The translations under genes and the position numbers were made by a program. Under the pieces are notes generated by a model, which had not been told where the DNA came from, did no database searches, and was given only the letters and a program-made list of their open reading frames with translations. From IMG/VR virus record IMGVR_UViG_3300030102_000779, positions 4,625 to 35,372 of that record: DNA of 30,748 nt; one strand, given 5' to 3'. Positions 22,415 through 30,748 of this stretch are shown here, in pieces; positions within the stretch are counted from its first letter, which is position 1; each line of letters opens with the position of its first letter. Source of the stretch: a virus.

Positions 22415-23197
22415 CTAAACTATCCCCGGCAAAACTTGTTGTTTGTGTTCATCATAATTTTCATTTGCTTTACTCCACAAATAATCAATTAATTGTTGTC
22501 CATCTTTAAAATCTAATTTTGTTTTTTCTGGTGTAAATTGGTTGCCAAAAATACAATCAGTTGCTTTTTGCCAATGTTGTTTATAAAGATGTTGTGAACC
22601 TGCTGTTAATATTAAATGACCTAATTTTAATTTAATATTGTATTGTGCTTTTAATTGCAACAATACATATAAAGATATTTGTGAAAAATTAAATACATCA
22701 TAAACCCAACCAAGCCAAGCGTCACTAGAACGCATTGTTGCATTACAATACAAAATATTTTTTCTAATTATAAATTGTAAAGTTAATGTACACGGAATGT
22801 CTTTACTAGGTCTTGGATTTTCTCTCCATATACTAATTATAGCTTGTCGACTTGACTCGTCATTTGCAAGTGTTTCGATAACATATGGTAATTGATCAAC
22901 AACTTTTACTCCATAAGAACCAAAATAACGTACGCCATCGTCACTAAATTTATGTATCATTTTAGAATAAGGTGAGATTGTTGCTACACGATTGTCACCT
23001 GACAATATCCAAGCAGCTTCTGCATATCTAAATTTGTGACCAATATCTCGTTCTTTAATAGATACCATTGGTTCAGTCATCGATACTCTTGTTTGATAAC
23101 CTAACAATTCTTTTGTTTCCATTTTTCTTGGTGCAAATACTGGTGCAAATTCTAAATCTTTCAGCATTTGTACCCATACACTAGTCGCGCTGGCCAT
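22415..23197 (-). CDS. Thymidylate-synthase-fold enzyme, probable dCMP hydroxymethylase
   Basis: A 260-aa protein with the ThyA-type active site: E60 (AEAAWILSG), nucleophile C136 (DIPCTLTLQF), R156 and D159 (MRSSDAWLG), H203 and Y205 (GSQHLYKQH). In thymidylate synthases a conserved Asn follows the LG motif and reads the uracil ring; here that position is Asp (D167, GWVYDVFNF). T4 dCMP hydroxymethylase has Asp at this position, and this protein shares with it the CTxT-Q pattern after the nucleophile, MRSxD, and GSxHxY. It would thus make 5-hydroxymethyl-dCMP from dCMP and methylene-tetrahydrofolate. ThyA or dUMP hydroxymethylase activity remains possible. It overlaps the upstream kinase gene by 17 bases, a clear pathway link. 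Confidence 0.7.
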   Translation of the reverse strand: MASATSVWVQMLKDLEFAPVFAPRKMETKELLGYQTRVSMTEPMVSIKERDIGHKFRYAEAAWILSGDNRVATISPYSKMIHKFSDDGVRYFGSYGVKVVDQLPYVIETLANDESSRQAIISIWRENPRPSKDIPCTLTLQFIIRKNILYCNATMRSSDAWLGWVYDVFNFSQISLYVLLQLKAQYNIKLKLGHLILTAGSQHLYKQHWQKATDCIFGNQFTPEKTKLDFKDGQQLIDYLWSKANENYDEHKQQVLPGIV

Positions 23198-23651
23198 AAA
23201 TCTCCCTCTTTACAAATTCTTCTGTGTTGTGTTCTGCATAATTGTATAATGTCCAATAAGGGTACATGTTTTTAAACAAATGATATGCATCATAAACTTT
23301 AGAAACATCTTCAAAATCTTCGTGTTCTTTACGTTCTAAAAATCTTTTTAATACTAAATCTTTAGGTGGCAAACACAATATGTATTTTGTAGTCGCATGT
23401 TTTTTGCATTCTTGTTCCATTGAATATACATTATAAGATGGACCTGCTCTAAATGTCGTTCCGTACACAAGCTCGCTTGGCCAATGTCGATCAATAATTA
23501 CATTATCTAATTTTAAACAATCCATATGTGGCTTGTAGGCTTTAGAATAAATACCATTATGTATATATAAATAATCAGTTAATTTTTGTTTTAATAAATT
23601 TGCAAGTGTTGTTTTACCTGCACAATCTGGTCCTTCTAATATAATTTTCAT
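23181..23651 (-). CDS. P-loop (deoxy)nucleoside monophosphate or DNA-base kinase, thymidylate-kinase-like
   Basis: A 156-aa kinase with Walker A EGPDCAGKTTLAN at 6-18 (K13), a DRHWPSELVYG motif (D54, R55, S59) equivalent to the DRY region of thymidylate kinases, and a basic lid (KRFLERKEHED). It is shorter than cellular Tmk (about 210 aa). Possible substrates are dTMP, dCMP or the hydroxymethylated nucleotide made by the adjacent enzyme; small P-loop kinases also act on hydroxymethyl bases already in DNA in hypermodified phages. Its ATG overlaps the stop of the lysozyme-like gene (ATGA), and its end overlaps the hydroxymethylase-like gene, so the two are probably co-expressed. Substrate cannot be decided from sequence alone. 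Confidence 0.85.
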   Translation of the reverse strand: MKIILEGPDCAGKTTLANLLKQKLTDYLYIHNGIYSKAYKPHMDCLKLDNVIIDRHWPSELVYGTTFRAGPSYNVYSMEQECKKHATTKYILCLPPKDLVLKRFLERKEHEDFEDVSKVYDAYHLFKNMYPYWTLYNYAEHNTEEFVKREIYGQRD

Positions 23652-24022
23652 TTTAACTCCTGTTCTATGTCTTTACTTGATGTTTCAATAATTAATTTTC
23701 CATATTTTTGTTGTAAAGTTTTTATTAAATTTTTTAATGAGCTAACTTGATGATATGTAAAATTAGTAGACCCAGCTAATTGTATTCCAATTGCCTCGTC
23801 ATTATGTAAACCTAAACCAAAACCAATTGCATCATCAGCTCTTCCTTTTTCGACTTTGCCATCAAGTGTTATAAAATAATGATATTTATAACCTAACACA
23901 CCTTCTTTGCGATGTTGCATTTCGACTTGGTGCTTAGTAATATCCAAGTTTGATGGTGTATTAGTATGATCAATAAAAATTGAATTAGTTTCTTTTCTAG
24001 TTCTTAATCCGACATTTCTCAT
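23648..24022 (-). CDS. T7-lysozyme-like protein lacking amidase zinc ligands
   Basis: I choose the ATG at 24022, seven bases after GGAG; an upstream in-frame ATG at 24088 lies deep inside the endonuclease gene. The 124-aa product aligns with T7 gp3.5 (151 aa): SIFIDHTNTP with AIFVHCSAT, HRKEGVLGYKYHYFI with the GYHF region (Y47 for Y46), GKVEKGR, and AIGIQLAG. T7 gp3.5 binds zinc through H17, H122 and C130. Here the H17 position is Asp18 (with His19 next to it), and the protein ends at about the place where H122, K128 and C130 would follow. Amidase activity is thus unlikely; the second role of gp3.5, binding and inhibiting the phage RNA polymerase, could remain. Confidence 0.8.
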   Translation of the reverse strand: MRNVGLRTRKETNSIFIDHTNTPSNLDITKHQVEMQHRKEGVLGYKYHYFITLDGKVEKGRADDAIGFGLGLHNDEAIGIQLAGSTNFTYHQVSSLKNLIKTLQQKYGKLIIETSSKDIEQELK

Positions 24023-24455
24023 TAATCCACTCCGTAGGTATTGTTTCCTTTGCATATTTAAAACCGTTTGTTTCACACCATTTAGCATATGTTGTTTTAG
24101 ATATTTTGCTTATACGTTGCATTGGATTTGAAAACACAAATCTTATATCTAAATGCGGGTGTTGTTCTTTAATCATTAAATGTTTTTGACGATCTTTTGT
24201 AAAAAATATTCCTTTCGCTTCTATAATTATACCATTTGGTAATTTAAAATCTGGTGTATATCTTGTTGCTTTTGCTGGTTTCACAAATTTTACCGTTAAC
24301 GTTTCATACTCAAAAGGAACGCCTAGCTTTTTTAATTGCATAGCTATGCGTTCCTCTAAGCCACTTCTATACGAAGTCTTCTTGTTGCGAAGGTTCGACG
24401 TTGTCTGTCTCTTCTTTCGCCACAAGTTGTTCTTCTTCCGTATGTACATAGCCAT
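23997..24455 (-). CDS. Endonuclease I, Holliday-junction resolvase (T7 gp3-like)
   Basis: A 152-aa protein matching T7 gp3 (149 aa). Catalytic residues are present: E34 (RSGLEERI), D69 (RYTPDFKLPNG), E79 and K81 (IEAKG), followed by KHLMIKEQHPHLDIRFVFSN, almost the T7 sequence. The enzyme resolves branched DNA and breaks down host DNA. The N-terminus is about 13 residues longer than T7's and very basic. The first 89 bases overlap the end of the SSB gene in another frame; GAAGAAG before the ATG is the only visible ribosome site, so the start is moderately certain. Confidence 0.93.
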   Translation of the reverse strand: MAMYIRKKNNLWRKKRQTTSNLRNKKTSYRSGLEERIAMQLKKLGVPFEYETLTVKFVKPAKATRYTPDFKLPNGIIIEAKGIFFTKDRQKHLMIKEQHPHLDIRFVFSNPMQRISKISKTTYAKWCETNGFKYAKETIPTEWINEKCRIKN

Positions 24456-24963
24456 CTTCTTCTTTAAAACCTAACGAGTCCATAGACGGCATCGCACGAG
24501 ATTGTAATTTAAGTATTTGTACTCCAATTAATCTCAATGAAATACCAGCTCCATTCGCTGGCACATAATAAGGTATAAGGTCTGCAGATACTTTAACTTC
24601 GCTGCCACCAAAAATATCTGTATTGATAATTGGTTGACCTTTTGCATCAACAACATGCGGTCTAATTGCCACATCGCCAATTTTAGCTTTAGTTTTAATT
24701 TTAAATAAAACTTTATTGCCTTCTTGTTCATCATATGGTTTAGCCGCAAGCTTGATTTTCTTATTAGGTGCTTTGGCTTTTTCTGATGCTATGTTGTCAT
24801 CGTAAGCCTTGTCGATGATAGTAATAAGTTTTTGTGCCTTATCCTTATCGACAATTATGTTACAACTATACAACCCATCTGGATTAAACTTCGTATCTGG
24901 CTGTTTAAGCCATGGATAAGACGCATTTCCGACAGGCGTTGTAACTCGTACATATTTAGCCAT
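24367..24963 (-). CDS. Single-stranded DNA-binding protein (T7 gp2.5-like)
   Basis: A 198-aa OB-fold-type SSB, compared with 232 aa in T7. The N-terminus reads MAKYVRVTTPVGNASYPWL, followed by KFNPDGLYSCNIIVDKDKA; the centre contains KIGDVAIRPHVVDAKGQPI; then SADLIPYYVPANGAGISLRL. The acidic C-terminal tail (EEEQLVAKEETDNVEPSQQE, ending DFV) carries the penultimate aromatic residue typical of gp2.5, where it contacts polymerase and helicase. AGGAGG lies close before the ATG, and an SP6-like promoter candidate lies just upstream. Confidence 0.93.
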   Translation of the reverse strand: MAKYVRVTTPVGNASYPWLKQPDTKFNPDGLYSCNIIVDKDKAQKLITIIDKAYDDNIASEKAKAPNKKIKLAAKPYDEQEGNKVLFKIKTKAKIGDVAIRPHVVDAKGQPIINTDIFGGSEVKVSADLIPYYVPANGAGISLRLIGVQILKLQSRAMPSMDSLGFKEEDGYVHTEEEQLVAKEETDNVEPSQQEDFV

Positions 24964-24984
24964 GTTGTCCTCCTATGCTAATTG

Positions 24985-25003
24985 TTCTATATGTGTTACT
25001 AAT
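24985..25003 (-). promoter_or_regulatory. Candidate phage RNA polymerase promoter before SSB
   Basis: On the minus strand the gap between RNAP and SSB reads ATTAGTAACACATATAGAA. This resembles the SP6 promoter (ATTTAGGTGACACTATAGAA) with small gaps: ATT-AG, ACAC and TATAGAA are shared. Transcription would start near 24987. T7 also has a promoter before gene 2.5. The similarity is suggestive only; the RNAP here has a specificity loop of different length, so its true consensus is unknown. Confidence 0.35.
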
Positions 25004-25011
25004 ACACTCCA

Positions 25012-27456
25012 TTATGAAAAGAAATACGTTGCTTTGTTAATCTCTTCAATATCAAGTGTCCCTTTTTTTGGAAGTGGCTGCATTTTTACTCTAAGTTTGT
25101 CGGGCAACAAAGTATAGATTTGTTCTCTAAAATGGTCTAATGGATCCATTTCAGTATACATTTGTATAAACGCAGATCTGGTACATTTATTTAGTATATC
25201 CATATCCGCTGGTAAAGTCGCATATGAGTCATGTACCATTCCAAAATCTTTTATGCCATGTTGTATGCAATGATCTATTGTAAGCAACATCGCTGTTGCG
25301 TCAAGACTATGCACAAAGTTTGGCGAAATACCATTTGCTTGTTTTCTTCTATTTATTTTTTCTGTATTTGATTTTATTCTTATACGACCCATCATTTTAG
25401 TTTTGACAACCATATCTTTTTGGTCATAATAAGCTTGTTGTACTGGAAAACCTAAAGGAGAAACCCAGTGTACAGGTGTTTTAAGTGTTGCACAAAGTCT
25501 TGCAGCGTGTTGTAGCCATGCCATTGCTTCTCGTGCTTTAATCACTGTATCACCAATAGAGTCCCATATTATATGTGCTAAAAATAAATTGGCATTTGTT
25601 CTATTCATAAATGGAACACGATCACCACGTTCTTCTCGTTCTTCTACATAATCATCGACAAAATCAACGCAAGAATATCTAGTACCACCATATGGCAAAA
25701 CCATTACAGATCGTTTTGTTGTTTTACGATCAACACCAAAATCTAACCATTGTTTTGCGTATGGATTATCAGATTGTTTTAATTTTAAATTAACTTTATC
25801 AGCAACTATTTGATAAATATCTTGCGGATCATTTGTGTTTGTTAAATTTACTGCATGTCCACCAACTTCATCTCTCAACATTGCTGAAAAATGTTGCAAA
25901 CCATTACAACTACCATCGATATTAATAGGTAAACTACATTCGTAAGCTCTACCATGTTTTATAAACTTATCAAATTCCATACACGCAGCAAGAAATTGCC
26001 ATGGTTTATCTGCTTGTTCCCAAAAATTACAAGTAAAAGGTGATTGACTACTTGCAATAATATCTTCTTTGTGTTTCATCGCCCATTGTTGTCGTTCTTG
26101 TAAAGGCACTTTATCATAACCATACATGTTTGCTAAATGTATACACAAGTAACGTTCACCAACTTCACCTAATGGTTTACTATTAGAAAATTTTAATAAT
26201 GCTTTAGACAAATCAGGTCCTTGTGGATTTAAATATGCTGGAACAGGGTACATACGACCTCTAAAATCAAACTGATGTGGAAAACCAATTTCAGTTTCAT
26301 CTTCAAACTTTTTACCAAGCCATATTGTTTTAGCAGTCGCTAATCTTTTACTTCCTAATTTTTTATTAAGTGTATAAACAGCAGCAGCTTCGCCTTTCCA
26401 TCTTTTTAATACTTGTTTTTCGTCATCATTTAAAGTTGTTTTATTAATAATAGCTGAAGGTTTATTAGGTAAATCTAATAATTTACTTGTAACTAAACCA
26501 CCTCTATTTCTGTCATCATTATCAAACACAGTTTGTGCAACTAACAAAATATTTTTGTTAACTTTCCACATTGTATCTTGCACAGCATTAATACCTTGAT
26601 AAACACCAGGCATATCGTATTGATGTAATTCTTTTAAATAAGTTCTATGCGAAGTAATATTATGACCTGTAACAAGAAACATCGGCGATATATGTCTTGA
26701 TATATAACCACCACCAATAGGTCTTTTCCAACGTCTTGGTCTTATCAGCATTGGAAAATTTTCTGCATTTAAAAACTCATTAAAGTCTTTTACTTTTTTA
26801 ATCCACTCTAAAGTTTTTTCAGTTGGTTGTATTACAAAATAAGATCTTTTTCTTTTTATTTCTTTTGATACTTTACAAAGATTTGTTGCTTGTATAAATA
26901 TTGAGATTAACTTCTCGCCAACTAAAAGTTTTTCTCTTGTTGTCCATTTAGTCCATTCAAAGCCTTGTCTTTTACTACTAATTAATTGTTTCCATCTACG
27001 ATATTCATAATGTGATGTACGCTTGTTTAAATCTTCTTCTATTTTATCAAACAAAAAACCATGTGTTTCACAAAATTTACGAAAATATAATTCATCTTCT
27101 ATTTTACCACCTAAAGATATTGCTTGTGCTGTAAACTTACGTATAGTTGTTATGCCATCAATAATTCTTTTTGCTGCAATAACCGCTATAGTCTTTGTAT
27201 CTAATTGTGACAAAAATTGTGTTGCAACAAATTTAGGTCCTCTGTTTACATCTTGTAAAAACAAGTCTAATTCACGCTCATAATTTTCAATACTTGTTTT
27301 TAATAATTTTTTGCCATGTATTGTTAATGACTCATTTTCTTTTTCTATTACTTGTGCTTGTCTTATCTTTGTTTTATGCGCACCTCTATTACGCATTTCT
27401 TCTTCTAATGCTATTTGTTTATCTATTAAGTTTTTTATATCGCGATACCCAGCCAT
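25012..27456 (-). CDS. Single-subunit phage RNA polymerase (T7 gp1-like)
   Basis: An 814-aa polymerase of the T7/SP6 family. Catalytic residues: D514 (NIDGSCNGLQHFSAM), K581 and Y589 (KRSVMVLPYGG), D743 (GMVHDSYATLPAD). The segment before PNFVHSLDATA, at about 688-706 (MMGRIRIKSNTEKINRRKQ), corresponds to the promoter specificity loop and is several residues shorter than in T7, so promoter sequence should differ. Length is below T7 (883 aa), mostly in the region between the first two motifs and in the N-terminus. The ATG overlaps the integrase end by 22 bases and has GGAGG six bases upstream. It would transcribe all genes to its left. Confidence 0.97.
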   Translation of the reverse strand: MAGYRDIKNLIDKQIALEEEMRNRGAHKTKIRQAQVIEKENESLTIHGKKLLKTSIENYERELDLFLQDVNRGPKFVATQFLSQLDTKTIAVIAAKRIIDGITTIRKFTAQAISLGGKIEDELYFRKFCETHGFLFDKIEEDLNKRTSHYEYRRWKQLISSKRQGFEWTKWTTREKLLVGEKLISIFIQATNLCKVSKEIKRKRSYFVIQPTEKTLEWIKKVKDFNEFLNAENFPMLIRPRRWKRPIGGGYISRHISPMFLVTGHNITSHRTYLKELHQYDMPGVYQGINAVQDTMWKVNKNILLVAQTVFDNDDRNRGGLVTSKLLDLPNKPSAIINKTTLNDDEKQVLKRWKGEAAAVYTLNKKLGSKRLATAKTIWLGKKFEDETEIGFPHQFDFRGRMYPVPAYLNPQGPDLSKALLKFSNSKPLGEVGERYLCIHLANMYGYDKVPLQERQQWAMKHKEDIIASSQSPFTCNFWEQADKPWQFLAACMEFDKFIKHGRAYECSLPINIDGSCNGLQHFSAMLRDEVGGHAVNLTNTNDPQDIYQIVADKVNLKLKQSDNPYAKQWLDFGVDRKTTKRSVMVLPYGGTRYSCVDFVDDYVEEREERGDRVPFMNRTNANLFLAHIIWDSIGDTVIKAREAMAWLQHAARLCATLKTPVHWVSPLGFPVQQAYYDQKDMVVKTKMMGRIRIKSNTEKINRRKQANGISPNFVHSLDATAMLLTIDHCIQHGIKDFGMVHDSYATLPADMDILNKCTRSAFIQMYTEMDPLDHFREQIYTLLPDKLRVKMQPLPKKGTLDIEEINKATYFFS

Positions 27457-28451
27457 TGTGTGCCTCCATTGTGTGTACGTTTATCTAATACTTCTCTTGC
27501 TATTGTCACATTATGTGGTGCAAGATGAGCATATCTTAATGTAGTTTTATAATTCTTATGACCTAACCAAGCTTGCACTGTTTGTATTGAAATACCTTTT
27601 TGTACTAGTCTTGATGCGCAAGTGTGTCTTGTCATATGAAAAGTAAACTCTTTGTCATCTGCAAGTCCCATTTGTTTTCTTGCATTATTCCATACTAATC
27701 TAAAATCTTGCTCTGTTATATTTGCAAATGGTTGCGATGATAGTGAACGCAATATTTGTAAAGCCACAGCAGTTAATTCAATAGTACGAAACTTTTTATT
27801 TTTACTACGATATATAGTTAAATATCTACCATTAAGATCTTTGTCTGTATTTATCTTTTTAAGTTCATTCTTTGTCATACCAGTCTCAATCGCAAACATT
27901 ACTAATTTCGCAAACAACAATTGATTTGATTGACACAATATATTTATAAACTTGTTTTCTTCTTCATAAGAAAAATATCTTAATCTACCTGGTCCTTCAT
28001 CAAACCATTCAAACTCAGGCATTGTTTTAATAAAGTTTCTTTTGTGTGCATGTCTTAACATCAAAGACAAACAAGATAATTTACGATTACAAGTAGAACC
28101 TAAATTACCTTTTGCTTGCCATTTATTTATTAAGTTATCTAATGTAGTTTCTTTTATACTATTTATTTTAGTATCATGACCTATATCATCAACAACATTA
28201 GAACAAGTTTTATCTGCTGTATTAAATTTATTTCGAGTACGATCATACAATTGTTTTATTGTTAAATCATATTTTTCAGCATCAATTATTTTGCAAGTCT
28301 CTTCCCATGTGTTACCTGCTTTTAACAATTCTAAACATTGTTTTTCTGTTTGTCTTGCGTCATGCTCATCACCATTGATTTGTAAACGATAACGTTTATT
28401 ACTAAAAAGCAAATCAATTTGGTAACCTTTATTTCTTTGGCGATATGCCAT
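27435..28451 (-). CDS. Tyrosine integrase with first catalytic Arg replaced
   Basis: A 338-aa site-specific recombinase. The N-terminal part (residues 1-155) contains an arm-type and SAM-like core-binding region (NLINKWQAKGNLGSTCNRKL). The catalytic domain has K217/K219 (YRSKNKKFRTIEL), H272 and R275 (FHMTRHTCASRL), H298 (WLGHKNYKTT) and the nucleophile Y307 (LRYAHLAP). The motif holding the first catalytic Arg, normally TGMR, reads TGMTKNEL: codon 27875-27873 is ACA (Thr193), one base from AGA (Arg). Integrases at this location, upstream of RNAP, are known in SAR11 podoviruses and allow lysogeny. The ORF is otherwise intact, with an AAGGAGG ribosome site. Activity is doubtful. Confidence 0.92.
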   Translation of the reverse strand: MAYRQRNKGYQIDLLFSNKRYRLQINGDEHDARQTEKQCLELLKAGNTWEETCKIIDAEKYDLTIKQLYDRTRNKFNTADKTCSNVVDDIGHDTKINSIKETTLDNLINKWQAKGNLGSTCNRKLSCLSLMLRHAHKRNFIKTMPEFEWFDEGPGRLRYFSYEEENKFINILCQSNQLLFAKLVMFAIETGMTKNELKKINTDKDLNGRYLTIYRSKNKKFRTIELTAVALQILRSLSSQPFANITEQDFRLVWNNARKQMGLADDKEFTFHMTRHTCASRLVQKGISIQTVQAWLGHKNYKTTLRYAHLAPHNVTIAREVLDKRTHNGGTQWLGIAI

Positions 28452-28605
28452 TGTTTACCTCCTTATTTATATAATATGGTTTATTTTTTTTACCGTCAAT
28501 CGTACAATTAGGACAATTAACTAACGCGCCTTCTTTGTGTACATAATGATTGCCTTTGCAGTCATCACAATACTTTTCTATTTGTTGATTAATCTCCTGC
28601 GACAT
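28429..28605 (-). CDS. 58-aa zinc-ribbon protein
   Basis: Start chosen at the ATG at 28605, with AAGGAG 12 bases upstream; a longer frame to 28701 lies wholly inside the PLP-enzyme gene. The product carries two CxxC pairs: KYCDDCKGNHYV and ALVNCPNCTIDG (C13, C16, C31, C34), a zinc ribbon like those of small transcription or DNA-binding factors. It then ends in a basic Asn/Lys-rich tail. It overlaps both the upstream gene and the integrase. A regulatory role for the integrase or early genes is possible but not shown. Confidence 0.7.
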   Translation of the reverse strand: MSQEINQQIEKYCDDCKGNHYVHKEGALVNCPNCTIDGKKNKPYYINKEVNNGISPKK

Positions 28606-29398
28606 TCCAAAACAAAGCTCCTTTCGATGCATGTTGTTTAATATAACGCCAAGCTTTTGCATCATAAGCTTTTGCGCTTGCAAATGGTGGTAACTCTTCA
28701 TCTTTTTCTGCTTTTAAAAAAGGATACGGATGAGAGTAAACATTGCCATGACCGACTTCACCACGTTTCATATTACGTGCAACAGCAACACCATGAAATA
28801 CAGCATTTGGCCATGCAATTTGTAATGCTCTATGTAATACACCAGTCGATAACACTGTCCATACTTCTTTTGGTTCTGGTATTTGACTTGCGACTTTTAC
28901 AATTGATGCAGTTACATATGGATCGTTCTTAAAACCCATCTCTATATAATGTGCATTGTATATAATTGCATGGTCTCTTGCATGTTTTCTAAGTCCTGAC
29001 ATACCATATATTTTTTTAGCATGCAACTCTGCACCTAAATCTCTACATCGCTCTTGATGCTCAGATAATTCTTTTGCAAGTGGAATAAATAAACTTACAC
29101 GTTTATGGTATCGTTTAGCAACAGCACATAAAGATATACCTGCATAACCTTGTCTTGGTTGTGCATACACAATCTCATCAGCTGTAAGATTTTTTATAGT
29201 ATAATCTATAAATCTCATTTTGCTGCCGTATTTTAAATAGTCTTCTCGTACTACTTGAATACCATCATGTTCTTCAATTATTGGTTTTGGATTTGGATCT
29301 TGCCAGTTTTCTACAAGTCTAAGATATGCTGATTTATTTGGATATAAAAGATTTTTATCTTTGTTTAAATGATCTATTACATGTTCATTATGCGGCAT
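28589..29398 (-). CDS. PLP-dependent enzyme, fold type II (ACC deaminase / cysteine desulfhydrase-like)
   Basis: A 269-aa protein with the layout of the tryptophan-synthase-beta (fold type II) PLP enzymes. VREDYLKYGSKMRFIDYTI (50-68) holds the Schiff-base lysine K60, as in the GNKxRK motif of ACC deaminase. QPRQGYAGISLCAVAKRYHK (80-99) is the usual Asn/Gln-Gly helix that contacts the carboxylate, and STGVLHRAL (184-192) is the phosphate-binding Gly loop, here less Gly-rich. The protein is shorter than cellular homologues (about 330 aa). The substrate is unknown: an amino acid, either free or attached to a modified base. PLP enzymes recur in phage base-hypermodification loci, which fits the hydroxymethylase-like gene in this genome. 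It overlaps both neighbours, indicating a coupled operon. Confidence 0.8.
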   Translation of the reverse strand: MPHNEHVIDHLNKDKNLLYPNKSAYLRLVENWQDPNPKPIIEEHDGIQVVREDYLKYGSKMRFIDYTIKNLTADEIVYAQPRQGYAGISLCAVAKRYHKRVSLFIPLAKELSEHQERCRDLGAELHAKKIYGMSGLRKHARDHAIIYNAHYIEMGFKNDPYVTASIVKVASQIPEPKEVWTVLSTGVLHRALQIAWPNAVFHGVAVARNMKRGEVGHGNVYSHPYPFLKAEKDEELPPFASAKAYDAKAWRYIKQHASKGALFWNVAGD

Positions 29399-30392
29399 AT
29401 GTTTTTCTCCCTGGATGTGAATGAATTAAACTTGTGTTTTTTAGATAATGTAAACCTTTGTCTAAATATTCTTGCGGAATATAATTCTCTACATATCTAA
29501 TATAATCACAACAAACATCTTCCATGTTATACGGAAAGTTGCCTAATTGCTGACACAATTGCACCATACAATAGTCATAAAATTTTTTATCTCTTCTGCC
29601 TTTTCCTGGTACAAACATCAAGTCTAATGCTTCAAAACAATTTTTACCATAATAGCAATGGCTACTTCTATCTACCAAAGAGGGAAAGTATTCCGCGATA
29701 TCCATAACCATTGCAGTCATCACAAATTTGTACCTTTTAAAACCATGTGATGTCAACCAATCTAGAACCCAGTCAACTGTCTCACGCTGTTCTTGCAATT
29801 GGTTTTTTGATTTTAAATAATTGTACAAATCATGTGCAAGTTTGGGCGCATGCTCACATAAAAACTCTCGGCCACCTTTGTCATAACAACCCGTAGGTTT
29901 ATTAAAGGGAGGTATTTGGTTACCGATCGAGGTAAAAAAAGGAGCTTGATATCGTTTTATAAACTCTACCATTTGCTCAATCGTGCACAATCCGGCATTG
30001 TATATTGGTTTTAATATTGTATTACGATAACCGTGGTCAGACTCAAACGATGCGCCTGAACCTGTTATACGATGTACAATAAATAAATAAAACCATGTTA
30101 CATCACTACAATCTAATCTTGTTGGACAAACTTGTTGTGTCGTACAAGTCTCTTGTGTTTTACCATACCACAGATCTTCTAGCATATTTGCAAAACCTGC
30201 ATATCGTCTCCACACTGTGTCATATATAGTTACAACGTCCATTAATTGATCACCACATTTAAAGCTACGTGGATATTTACCAATATTACGTTCATTTAAA
30301 CTTTTAGCCAAACCATAGTATCTTACAAAGTCTACATGATAAGGTGTTATTTTAAGTTCTTCTGATATTCTTTTTGTCATCATGTTAGGCAT
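29388..30392 (-). CDS. 334-aa early protein of unassigned family (candidate DNA-modification transferase)
   Basis: The protein is largely helical and cysteine-rich. A striking central motif is FIVHRITGSGASFESDHGYR (104-123), followed by NTILKPIYNAG; another is TGCYDKGGREFLC. The C-terminal half (GFKRYKFVMTAMVMDIAEYF, then NCFEALDLMF) recalls the helix-hairpin-helix glycosylase-like folds of base-modification transferases and kinases described in hypermodified phages (the aGPT-PPlase group), but I cannot match a clade with certainty. Immediate coupling to a PLP enzyme (11-base overlap) supports joint function. The start is a TAATG overlap with the preceding gene and has AAGGAG upstream. Treat the functional call as a hypothesis. 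Confidence 0.6.
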   Translation of the reverse strand: MPNMMTKRISEELKITPYHVDFVRYYGLAKSLNERNIGKYPRSFKCGDQLMDVVTIYDTVWRRYAGFANMLEDLWYGKTQETCTTQQVCPTRLDCSDVTWFYLFIVHRITGSGASFESDHGYRNTILKPIYNAGLCTIEQMVEFIKRYQAPFFTSIGNQIPPFNKPTGCYDKGGREFLCEHAPKLAHDLYNYLKSKNQLQEQRETVDWVLDWLTSHGFKRYKFVMTAMVMDIAEYFPSLVDRSSHCYYGKNCFEALDLMFVPGKGRRDKKFYDYCMVQLCQQLGNFPYNMEDVCCDYIRYVENYIPQEYLDKGLHYLKNTSLIHSHPGRKTYAA

Positions 30393-30745
30393 TAAAATCT
30401 CCTTTGCATTGTATCTAAATCAGTTTTGTAACTATCTGTTGACAAATGCACAGATTTAGGCTTTTCCATATACTCAGGTTTTAACTCACCATTTTCATTC
30501 TCAAAATAATCTGGCCATGCGTGTATACGCCATTTCTTTTTCAATGCTAATTTACTTAAATTATTATTAAAAAAGTTTTTGACGTCTGTACGTTCTGCAA
30601 AAGAACCAAAGAACGGCTCTTGTTCATAATAACCACTTTTTGGTATTACACGGTCATCTGCAGGTAATGGCAATGCATGAACCAATGTAACACTTTCAAA
30701 GTTATTTATTTCATTTAGTTTTGTTAGTTGCTCTTCAAGTCTCAT
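30392..30745 (-). CDS. 117-aa early hypothetical protein (5' end possibly outside window)
   Basis: The frame opens at an ATG three bases from the right edge, so the ribosome site cannot be seen and the true start could lie beyond the window. The product contains a Pro-rich turn (LVHALPLPADDRVIPKSGYY), aromatic acidic segments (EQEPFFGSFAERTDVKNFF, WRIHAWPDYFENENGELKP) and ends DTMQRRF. No family recognised. Its stop overlaps the next start by one base (TAATG), and its last codons contain that gene's AAGGAG site, so it belongs to the same early operon. Confidence 0.65.
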   Translation of the reverse strand: MRLEEQLTKLNEINNFESVTLVHALPLPADDRVIPKSGYYEQEPFFGSFAERTDVKNFFNNNLSKLALKKKWRIHAWPDYFENENGELKPEYMEKPKSVHLSTDSYKTDLDTMQRRF

Positions 30746-30748
30746 CGT

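Follow-up and report, generated by a model that had tools for sequence, protein, structure and literature searches.

To our knowledge, hypermodification of phage DNA by amino acid:DNA transferases together with pyridoxal 5'-phosphate (PLP) enzymes has been described for thymine only. The M6-like cassette comprises a pyrimidine hydroxymethylase, Nmad5, aGPT-Pplase1, a nucleotide kinase, a radical SAM enzyme (rSAM), a PLP enzyme and aGPT-Pplase2 (PMC9476957). In pelagiphages of the HTVC023P type, pairs of a thymidylate synthase (TS) gene and an aG/PT-PPlase1 gene were described and thymidine was proposed as what they modify (Wittmers et al. 2022, PMC9599517), and a glycine-bearing cytosine is made by another route, carboxymethylation and ligation (PMC12783734). 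Here, a candidate cytosine hypermodification gene set was analyzed in a stretch of viral DNA of 30,748 nucleotides (the window), which represents bases 4625–35372 of the 37,137-base virus record IMGVR_UViG_3300030102_000779 and abuts a run of N (35373–35382). The genome is T7-like, with a single-subunit RNA polymerase, a gp2.5-like single-stranded DNA-binding protein, endonuclease I, a primase-helicase, a DNA polymerase and an integrase. On balance, we favor the reading that 5-hydroxymethylcytosine (hmC) is made as a nucleotide, incorporated, and then modified in the DNA by an SGNH-like protein, a 334-residue protein and a PLP enzyme.

A previous sequence-only reading of the window had proposed a pathway of four genes. 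All four were found as open reading frames (ORFs) on the minus strand, encoding proteins of 260, 156, 269 and 334 amino acid residues in the order given below; the fifth, SGNH-like gene of the cassette had been overlooked.

22415..23197, minus strand: ThyA-fold enzyme, probable dCMP hydroxymethylase (Pfam PF00303, E 7.8e-22; active-site residue comparison)
23181..23651, minus strand: P-loop nucleotide kinase, probably the deoxynucleoside monophosphate kinase for hydroxymethyl-dCMP (Pfam Thymidylate_kin, E 4.9e-8)
28589..29398, minus strand: PLP enzyme, predicted to be of fold type II, in the family of M6 gp52 (phrog_7093, E 1.3e-35)
29388..30392, minus strand: 334-residue helical protein with a likely helix-hairpin-helix (HhH)-glycosylase-like fold, plausibly amino acid:DNA transferase-like (AlphaFold2 model, structure comparison)
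30392..30748, minus strand: SGNH-fold protein, of which the window holds the last 118 codons (117 if counted from the first ATG; phrog_13881, E 7e-18), the gene extending past the window end into the run of N of the record

According to the alignment, the ThyA-fold enzyme carries Glu58, Tyr94, Cys146, Thr147, Asp169 and Asp177 (E. coli ThyA numbering), and the catalytic Glu58, Tyr94 and Cys146 of the thymidylate-synthase fold are thus all present. The pair Thr147/Asp177 is shared with T4 gp42 and was also found in the enzymes of AXL3 and PW916, whereas Asn147/Asn177 was found in M6 gp58, PaMx11 gp51, ViI ThyA, P26218 gp16, ctpVu19 and a SPO1-like phage (in a smaller alignment, M6 and ViI, with one extra residue, shift by one at position 177); the pair in E. 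coli ThyA is His147/Asn177. In published work that compared contigs with and without modification, Asp177 was tied to modified cytosine: where cytosine was modified, most of the enzymes had this residue, and position 147 was the other discriminating site (PMC8670742). Because the window enzyme has the residues of the T4 dCMP hydroxymethylase, in contrast to the Asn/Asn pair of the thymine-hypermodifying phages, cytosine is the likely base, and the enzyme is probably a dCMP hydroxymethylase of the T4 gp42 type, which agrees with the hydroxymethylase-like enzyme with a dCMP-type residue of the earlier reading. Asp177 was also observed in 85 of 85 ThyA-like sequences of the viral-contig loci L011–L096, a count that is not independent evidence because Asp177 is itself part of one of the two patterns with which 80 of these loci were retrieved. 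The nearest relatives of the window ThyA-like protein in the phage records searched were those of Pelagibacter phages HTVC119P and HTVC200P (64% identity).

The adjacent kinase matched AAA models of Pfam besides Thymidylate_kin, as well as phrog_761 of the PHROGs (E 1.8e-19), and its closest solved chain was YorR of SPBc2 (E 7.8e-6). A relative of it was found in 71 of 80 related loci with the ThyA-like gene, at most 737 bases off, and directly before the ThyA-like gene in HTVC119P and HTVC200P (67% and 70% identity, respectively). The P-loop kinase seen in the sequence-only reading was thereby confirmed; its supposed action on the base in DNA was rejected, given that the protein gave no Pfam match to the 5-hydroxymethyldeoxyuridine (5-hmdU) DNA kinase model PF18748 (HMUDK_HMUD1) and that the kinase accompanies the ThyA-like gene even where the cassette is absent. 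We infer that the protein is a nucleotide kinase acting on the hydroxymethyl nucleotide. In about 29 listed relatives, AXL3 gp29 (L006:11019-12002) among them, the kinase ORF has 320–359 residues and is extended relative to the 156 residues in the window; judged from example sequences, some carry the extension at the C terminus, and in others it is an N-terminal, MazG-like part.

The PLP enzyme was confirmed, and it is a relative of M6 gp52. Both belong to phrog_7093 (E 2.2e-159 for M6 gp52), and hhalign of the window protein with M6 gp52 gave a probability of 96.7 (E 3.2e-10, 222 columns); weak matches in the PDB were to cystathionine beta-synthase and cysteine synthase. All 14 sequences of an alignment have Lys60, which by the fold type would bind PLP, and M6 gp52 has S-K-x-R at the aligned place. 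No match of the window protein to Pfam PALP (PF00291) was obtained even at E 10, whereas M6 gp52 matched with 39.5 bits. The role of M6 gp52 we take to be decarboxylation. In three phage records, the PLP gene was found within or beside a ParB/methylase-like gene. In Erythrobacter phages (ZS04, L008:2326-4764; KY006853 gp1), the PLP relative sits between the two parts of a ParB/DNA-methylase-like protein, and in Microcystis phage Mae-JY30 (L004:8384-10702) it adjoins split methylase genes (domains read from the sequence). Searches of R6L and Mae-JY30 gave no ThyA-family gene.

A scan for the PLP family yielded 461 confirmed relatives in viral contigs, and the counts for the cassette rest on the best 80 loci. 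A relative of the 334-residue protein was beside or near the PLP relative in 78 of these 80 loci, the two exceptions being cut by the contig end; the gene set is therefore more than chance, and the coupling of the two genes that had been read from the window holds in these loci. The SGNH-like gene was found in 74 of the 80 loci, and wherever all three genes were present (74/74) the order was SGNH, 334-residue protein, PLP enzyme; a single ORF separates the first two genes in 15 loci, and none does in the other 59. PLP loci without the SGNH-like gene or the 334-residue gene end at the contig edge at that place. When the loci were grouped at 95% PLP identity, the 334-residue gene was present in 29 and the SGNH-like gene in 28 of the 29 groups. 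Of the 80 loci, 65 hold a gene with a dUTPase_2 match below the cut-off (in the member scanned), and 63 hold a DUF6378 gene; genes of family B-like DNA polymerase, ribonucleotide reductase and UvsX-like families, named from one PHROGs-named member each, were nearby in 43 to 64 loci per family. A conserved family of ∼370 residues (e.g., L124:3893-5017) lay near or between the 334-residue and PLP genes in 34 of the 80 loci; the one member scanned had no Pfam match, and a profile comparison (8 members aligned) was too weak to accept it as kin of the 334-residue family or of ADDT.

As 13 of the 80 PLP-locus contigs are at least 100 kb long, the cassette is not special to small T7-like phages. HTVC119P and HTVC200P share the integrase–polymerase backbone, the kinase and the ThyA-like gene with the window phage, and no PLP, 334-residue or SGNH-like relative was found in them. 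Because these two phages have the ThyA-like gene and the kinase with no cassette relative found, the cassette resembles an extra module in a phage that makes hmC. From the 80 loci, 22 cassette records were hand-picked for profile searches, namely 19 of at least 70 kb and three shorter podoviral ones.

The 334-residue protein, described earlier as helical and without an assigned family, gave no Pfam or PHROG match, and its PDB rows were at chance level only; the 17 aligned members of its family, too, gave rows at chance level only. The search against PF18723 and PF18724 suggested earlier gave no match to either. No direct sequence link of this family to ADDT or HMUDK_hel was obtained by Pfam, PHROGs, profile–profile comparison or profile search of the 22 records. 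The AlphaFold2 model was mostly helical. When the model was compared with BFVD by Foldseek, four matches were below E 0.001, two of which are named amino acid:DNA transferase domain-containing (E 1.4e-17 and 7.1e-6; 38% and 17% identity); weaker rows included an aGPT-Pplase1 protein (E 0.0092), the 5-hmdU DNA kinase of SP10 (0.025) and a PhiW-14 helical domain protein (0.11). VIA-align, in which a Z at this level can reflect a common helical arrangement only and rows within 1 count as tied, ranked the PaMx11 gp46 glycinyltransferase (8z2m) first (Z 9.4, 204 residues, root-mean-square deviation 3.9), followed by HhH DNA glycosylases and DUF2419 queuosine-salvage enzymes (Z 6.4–8.8) before a drop to 4.1. 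Near its end, the family has an invariant E-D-V-x-C, with E291 and C295 in 17 of 17 aligned members, and the E-x-x-x-C motif was present in 78 of 78 relatives; E243 and C247 of PaMx11 gp46 are offset from them by 48, equal to the offset of the structural alignment ends (305/257). That E-x-x-x-C near the C-terminal helix marks the ADDT family is our own reading of eight aligned members. Based on the model, an HhH-like fold is likely and a transferase role plausible; the protein was not filed under PF18724 because it fails that profile test. In a tblastn search of the phage collection with the window protein and a large-phage relative as queries, no isolated phage with the 334-residue gene was found.

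An intact copy of the SGNH-like protein in L001 has 349 residues, and its model (mean predicted local distance difference test, pLDDT, 82.6) has the SGNH/GDSL esterase fold (Z 15.1 to 2hsj). Ser166, Asn211 and His332 were invariant in 18 of 18 sequences (the L001 copy and its relatives); the block V Asp, usual three residues before the His, is replaced by Lys or Gln (position 329) in all 18. Of the 43 phage records with a relative, 38 are from Aeromonas, 3 from Tenacibaculum and 2 from Stenotrophomonas phages. In Aeromonas phage 44RR2.8t, ORF233c (L199:5953-8340) holds the SGNH-like domain in a fusion of 795 residues, the C-terminal part of which showed a weak HMUDK_hel match (17.2 bits; cut-off 25) and shares an AGPGA stretch with M6 gp55, although a profile comparison of this part with three HMUDK_hel proteins gave a probability of only 1.2. 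In SP10, the helical domain forms part of the 5-hmdU DNA kinase. Aeromonas phage 25 has an unfused SGNH-like protein of 348 residues with no HMUDK_hel match, and both phages carry a ThyA and a T4-type enzyme with Thr147/Asp177.

In the pathway that we propose, the ThyA-fold enzyme would convert dCMP to 5-hydroxymethyl-dCMP, the adjacent kinase would take this to the diphosphate, host enzymes would complete the triphosphate, and the phage polymerase would insert hmC into DNA. After replication, the SGNH-like, 334-residue and PLP proteins would act on hmC in the DNA: the 334-residue protein would flip the base out and join an amino acid or similar amine to the 5-methylene carbon, and the PLP enzyme would then trim the group so attached. 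We hold hmC as the substrate with strong confidence, and the transferase role of the 334-residue protein and, by analogy with M6, the trimming by the PLP enzyme with moderate confidence each. The boldest step is that the SGNH-like domain may stand in for the base kinase. The resemblance to hypermodification logic noted in the sequence-only reading is upheld by the M6 gp52-family PLP gene, the putative transferase-like fold and the conserved cassette. A more specific version is offered tentatively, as a possibility we would not yet bet on: hmC would be activated by the SGNH-fold enzyme rather than by a P-loop base kinase, and then be acted on by a divergent HhH-fold transferase and an M6 gp52-type PLP trimming enzyme to give an amino-acid- or amine-bearing cytosine, with the three genes forming a portable add-on of T7-like and large marine phages. 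The benefit would probably be protection from restriction enzymes.

Several results weigh against the proposed pathway. PF18724 (ADDT) was matched by none of 17 members of the 334-residue family and in none of the 22 cassette records, and the profile comparison of the family with PF18724 gave an hhalign probability of 1.3. The model of the 334-residue protein is middling (mean pLDDT 69.6; five models 51–70), Foldseek against the PDB gave nothing significant for it, and an 8-oxoguanine glycosylase (Z 8.8) and a queuosine-salvage DUF2419 protein (Z 8.7) are tied with 8z2m, within 1 Z. The known activation step is missing, because a base kinase of the 5-hmdU type was above the cut-off in none of the 22 cassette records (one stray row of 10.7 bits). 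We also know of no phage with the full cassette whose chemistry is known. Finally, a PF00303 match was obtained in 8 of the 22 records, one of which (G004) has the ThyA type only, and no ThyA-family gene was found by this search in the other 14, many of which are fragments.

This last result is consistent with a different reading, in which the ThyA-like enzyme and the kinase make hmC only, and the SGNH, 334-residue and PLP genes are an unrelated cassette for salvage or a small-molecule pathway, or include a nucleoside hydrolase of the QNG1/DUF2419 fold. HTVC119P and HTVC200P, with the ThyA-like and kinase genes and no cassette, fit it, as do the DUF2419 queuosine-salvage chains that match the 334-residue model (Z 8.4–8.7). 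We regard it as unlikely. The PLP protein shares its family with M6 gp52, which is itself from a hypermodification cassette. An enzyme of the dCMP type, with Thr147/Asp177, is present in 7 of the 8 ThyA-positive cassette records, a less biased figure than the 85 sequences above (the active-site segment is identical in L184 and L185, and two stops interrupt the matched stretch of L186). Furthermore, an Aeromonas phage with a T4-type dCMP enzyme carries the SGNH-like domain fused to a part that weakly matches HMUDK_hel.

Alternatively, the pathway could hypermodify thymine as in M6, PaMx11 and ViI, with Asp177 incidental. Relatives of the PLP and transferase proteins with known products use 5-hmdU (M6, ViI and phi W-14, PMC6449724; M6-like, PMC9476957), and the HTVC023P-type pelagiphages were so interpreted (PMC9599517). 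This is very improbable given Thr147/Asp177, which was also found in cassette-bearing records that were not selected for the signature, and given the published digest of AXL3, whose ThyA-like and kinase genes are 41% and 31% identical to those of the window. Of 37 enzymes, only TasI and Tru1I, both with A/T-only sites, digested AXL3 DNA; another thymidylate synthase of this phage is of the complementing type, and its ThyA-like gene was taken by the authors as dTMP-making (PMC7504290). That gene, gp28 (L006:11983-12792), is annotated as a thymidylate synthase, yet has dCMP-type residues, which suggest that its product is not made for dTMP synthesis. Thymine is therefore disfavored as the target by residues 147/177 and by the digest, and cytosine as the modified base, first proposed from the window, agrees with both.

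A further reading, in which the 334-residue protein is not the transferase and assists the SGNH-like enzyme by flipping the base (compare the helical domain in the 5-hmdU DNA kinase), with that enzyme setting an acyl or other added group, would fit the weak Foldseek rows of SP10 (E 0.025) and PhiW-14 (0.11), the SGNH-like gene upstream in 74 of 74 loci and the SGNH–HMUDK_hel-like fusion in 44RR2.8t, but we give it little credence, as the top solved match of the model is a glycinyltransferase and the PLP enzyme of the cassette points to an amino-acid substrate.

Other genes around the cassette were also recorded. A phage integrase family protein at 27435–28451 (PF00589, E 5.2e-24) adjoins the cassette, which suggests that the window phage is temperate; in HTVC119P and HTVC200P, an integrase is likewise directly ahead of the RNA polymerase gene. 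Between the PLP gene and the integrase, an ORF of 90 residues (28429–28701) has a cysteine-rich stretch, and all of its Pfam matches were below the cut-off. Upstream in the record of the window, a protein of 99 residues showed a weak match, below the cut-off, to DUF1599 (nucleotide modification associated domain 1). No close DNA relative of the last 8.7 kb of the window was found in the phage collection.

Thymine hypermodification by these kinds of enzyme is known, and what is most likely new is the cytosine version with an SGNH-like partner; a search of the open-access literature recognized no cytosine version of the transferase/PLP chemistry, and no paper on the PaMx11 glycinyltransferase was found. 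If true, a cytosine version would broaden the known DNA chemistry, supply enzymes to label or protect hmC, and explain the restriction resistance that many marine phages may have. The cassette also gives a direct test for a family of functionally unassigned SGNH-like phage proteins that occurs in cultured Aeromonas phages.

Compared with the described systems, the gene set of the window combines features of several. It resembles the thymidine cassette of Pseudomonas phages M6 and PaMx11 (5-NedU, 5-(2-aminoethyl)deoxyuridine, in M6) in its ThyA-fold hydroxymethylase, its putative transferase-like fold and its place near replication genes, and the M6 PLP enzyme gp52 falls into the PHROG of the window PLP protein. 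It differs in that the hydroxymethylase is of the dUMP type there and of the dCMP type in the window, that the window kinase lacks PF18748 and the 334-residue protein matches neither PF18724 nor PF18723, and that the window has an SGNH-like gene in addition. A radical SAM gene, a member of the M6-type cassette, was found for none of the 19 window proteins that were scanned with PHROGs. The HTVC023P-type pair, compared by description only, is likewise from pelagiphages, with a ThyA-like and a helical transferase-family gene and a proposed role in DNA hypermodification; its authors took it to hypermodify thymidine and linked it to M6/PaMx11-like proteins, and no PLP or SGNH gene is named in the cited portion of that paper. 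The Aeromonas T4-like phages share a homologous SGNH-like domain (44RR2.8t ORF233c, phrog_17781; 32–34% identity among the matches listed), but no PLP or 334-residue relative was found in them in the phage collection, and 44RR2.8t has the fusion. T4 itself has a deoxynucleoside monophosphate kinase, gene 1; the window has a partner kinase gene beside its hydroxymethylase and shares the Thr147/Asp177 signature with T4. No glucosyltransferase, by which T4 modifies hmC, was seen among the 19 proteins scanned; unlike T4, the window has the PLP, transferase-like and SGNH cassette instead.

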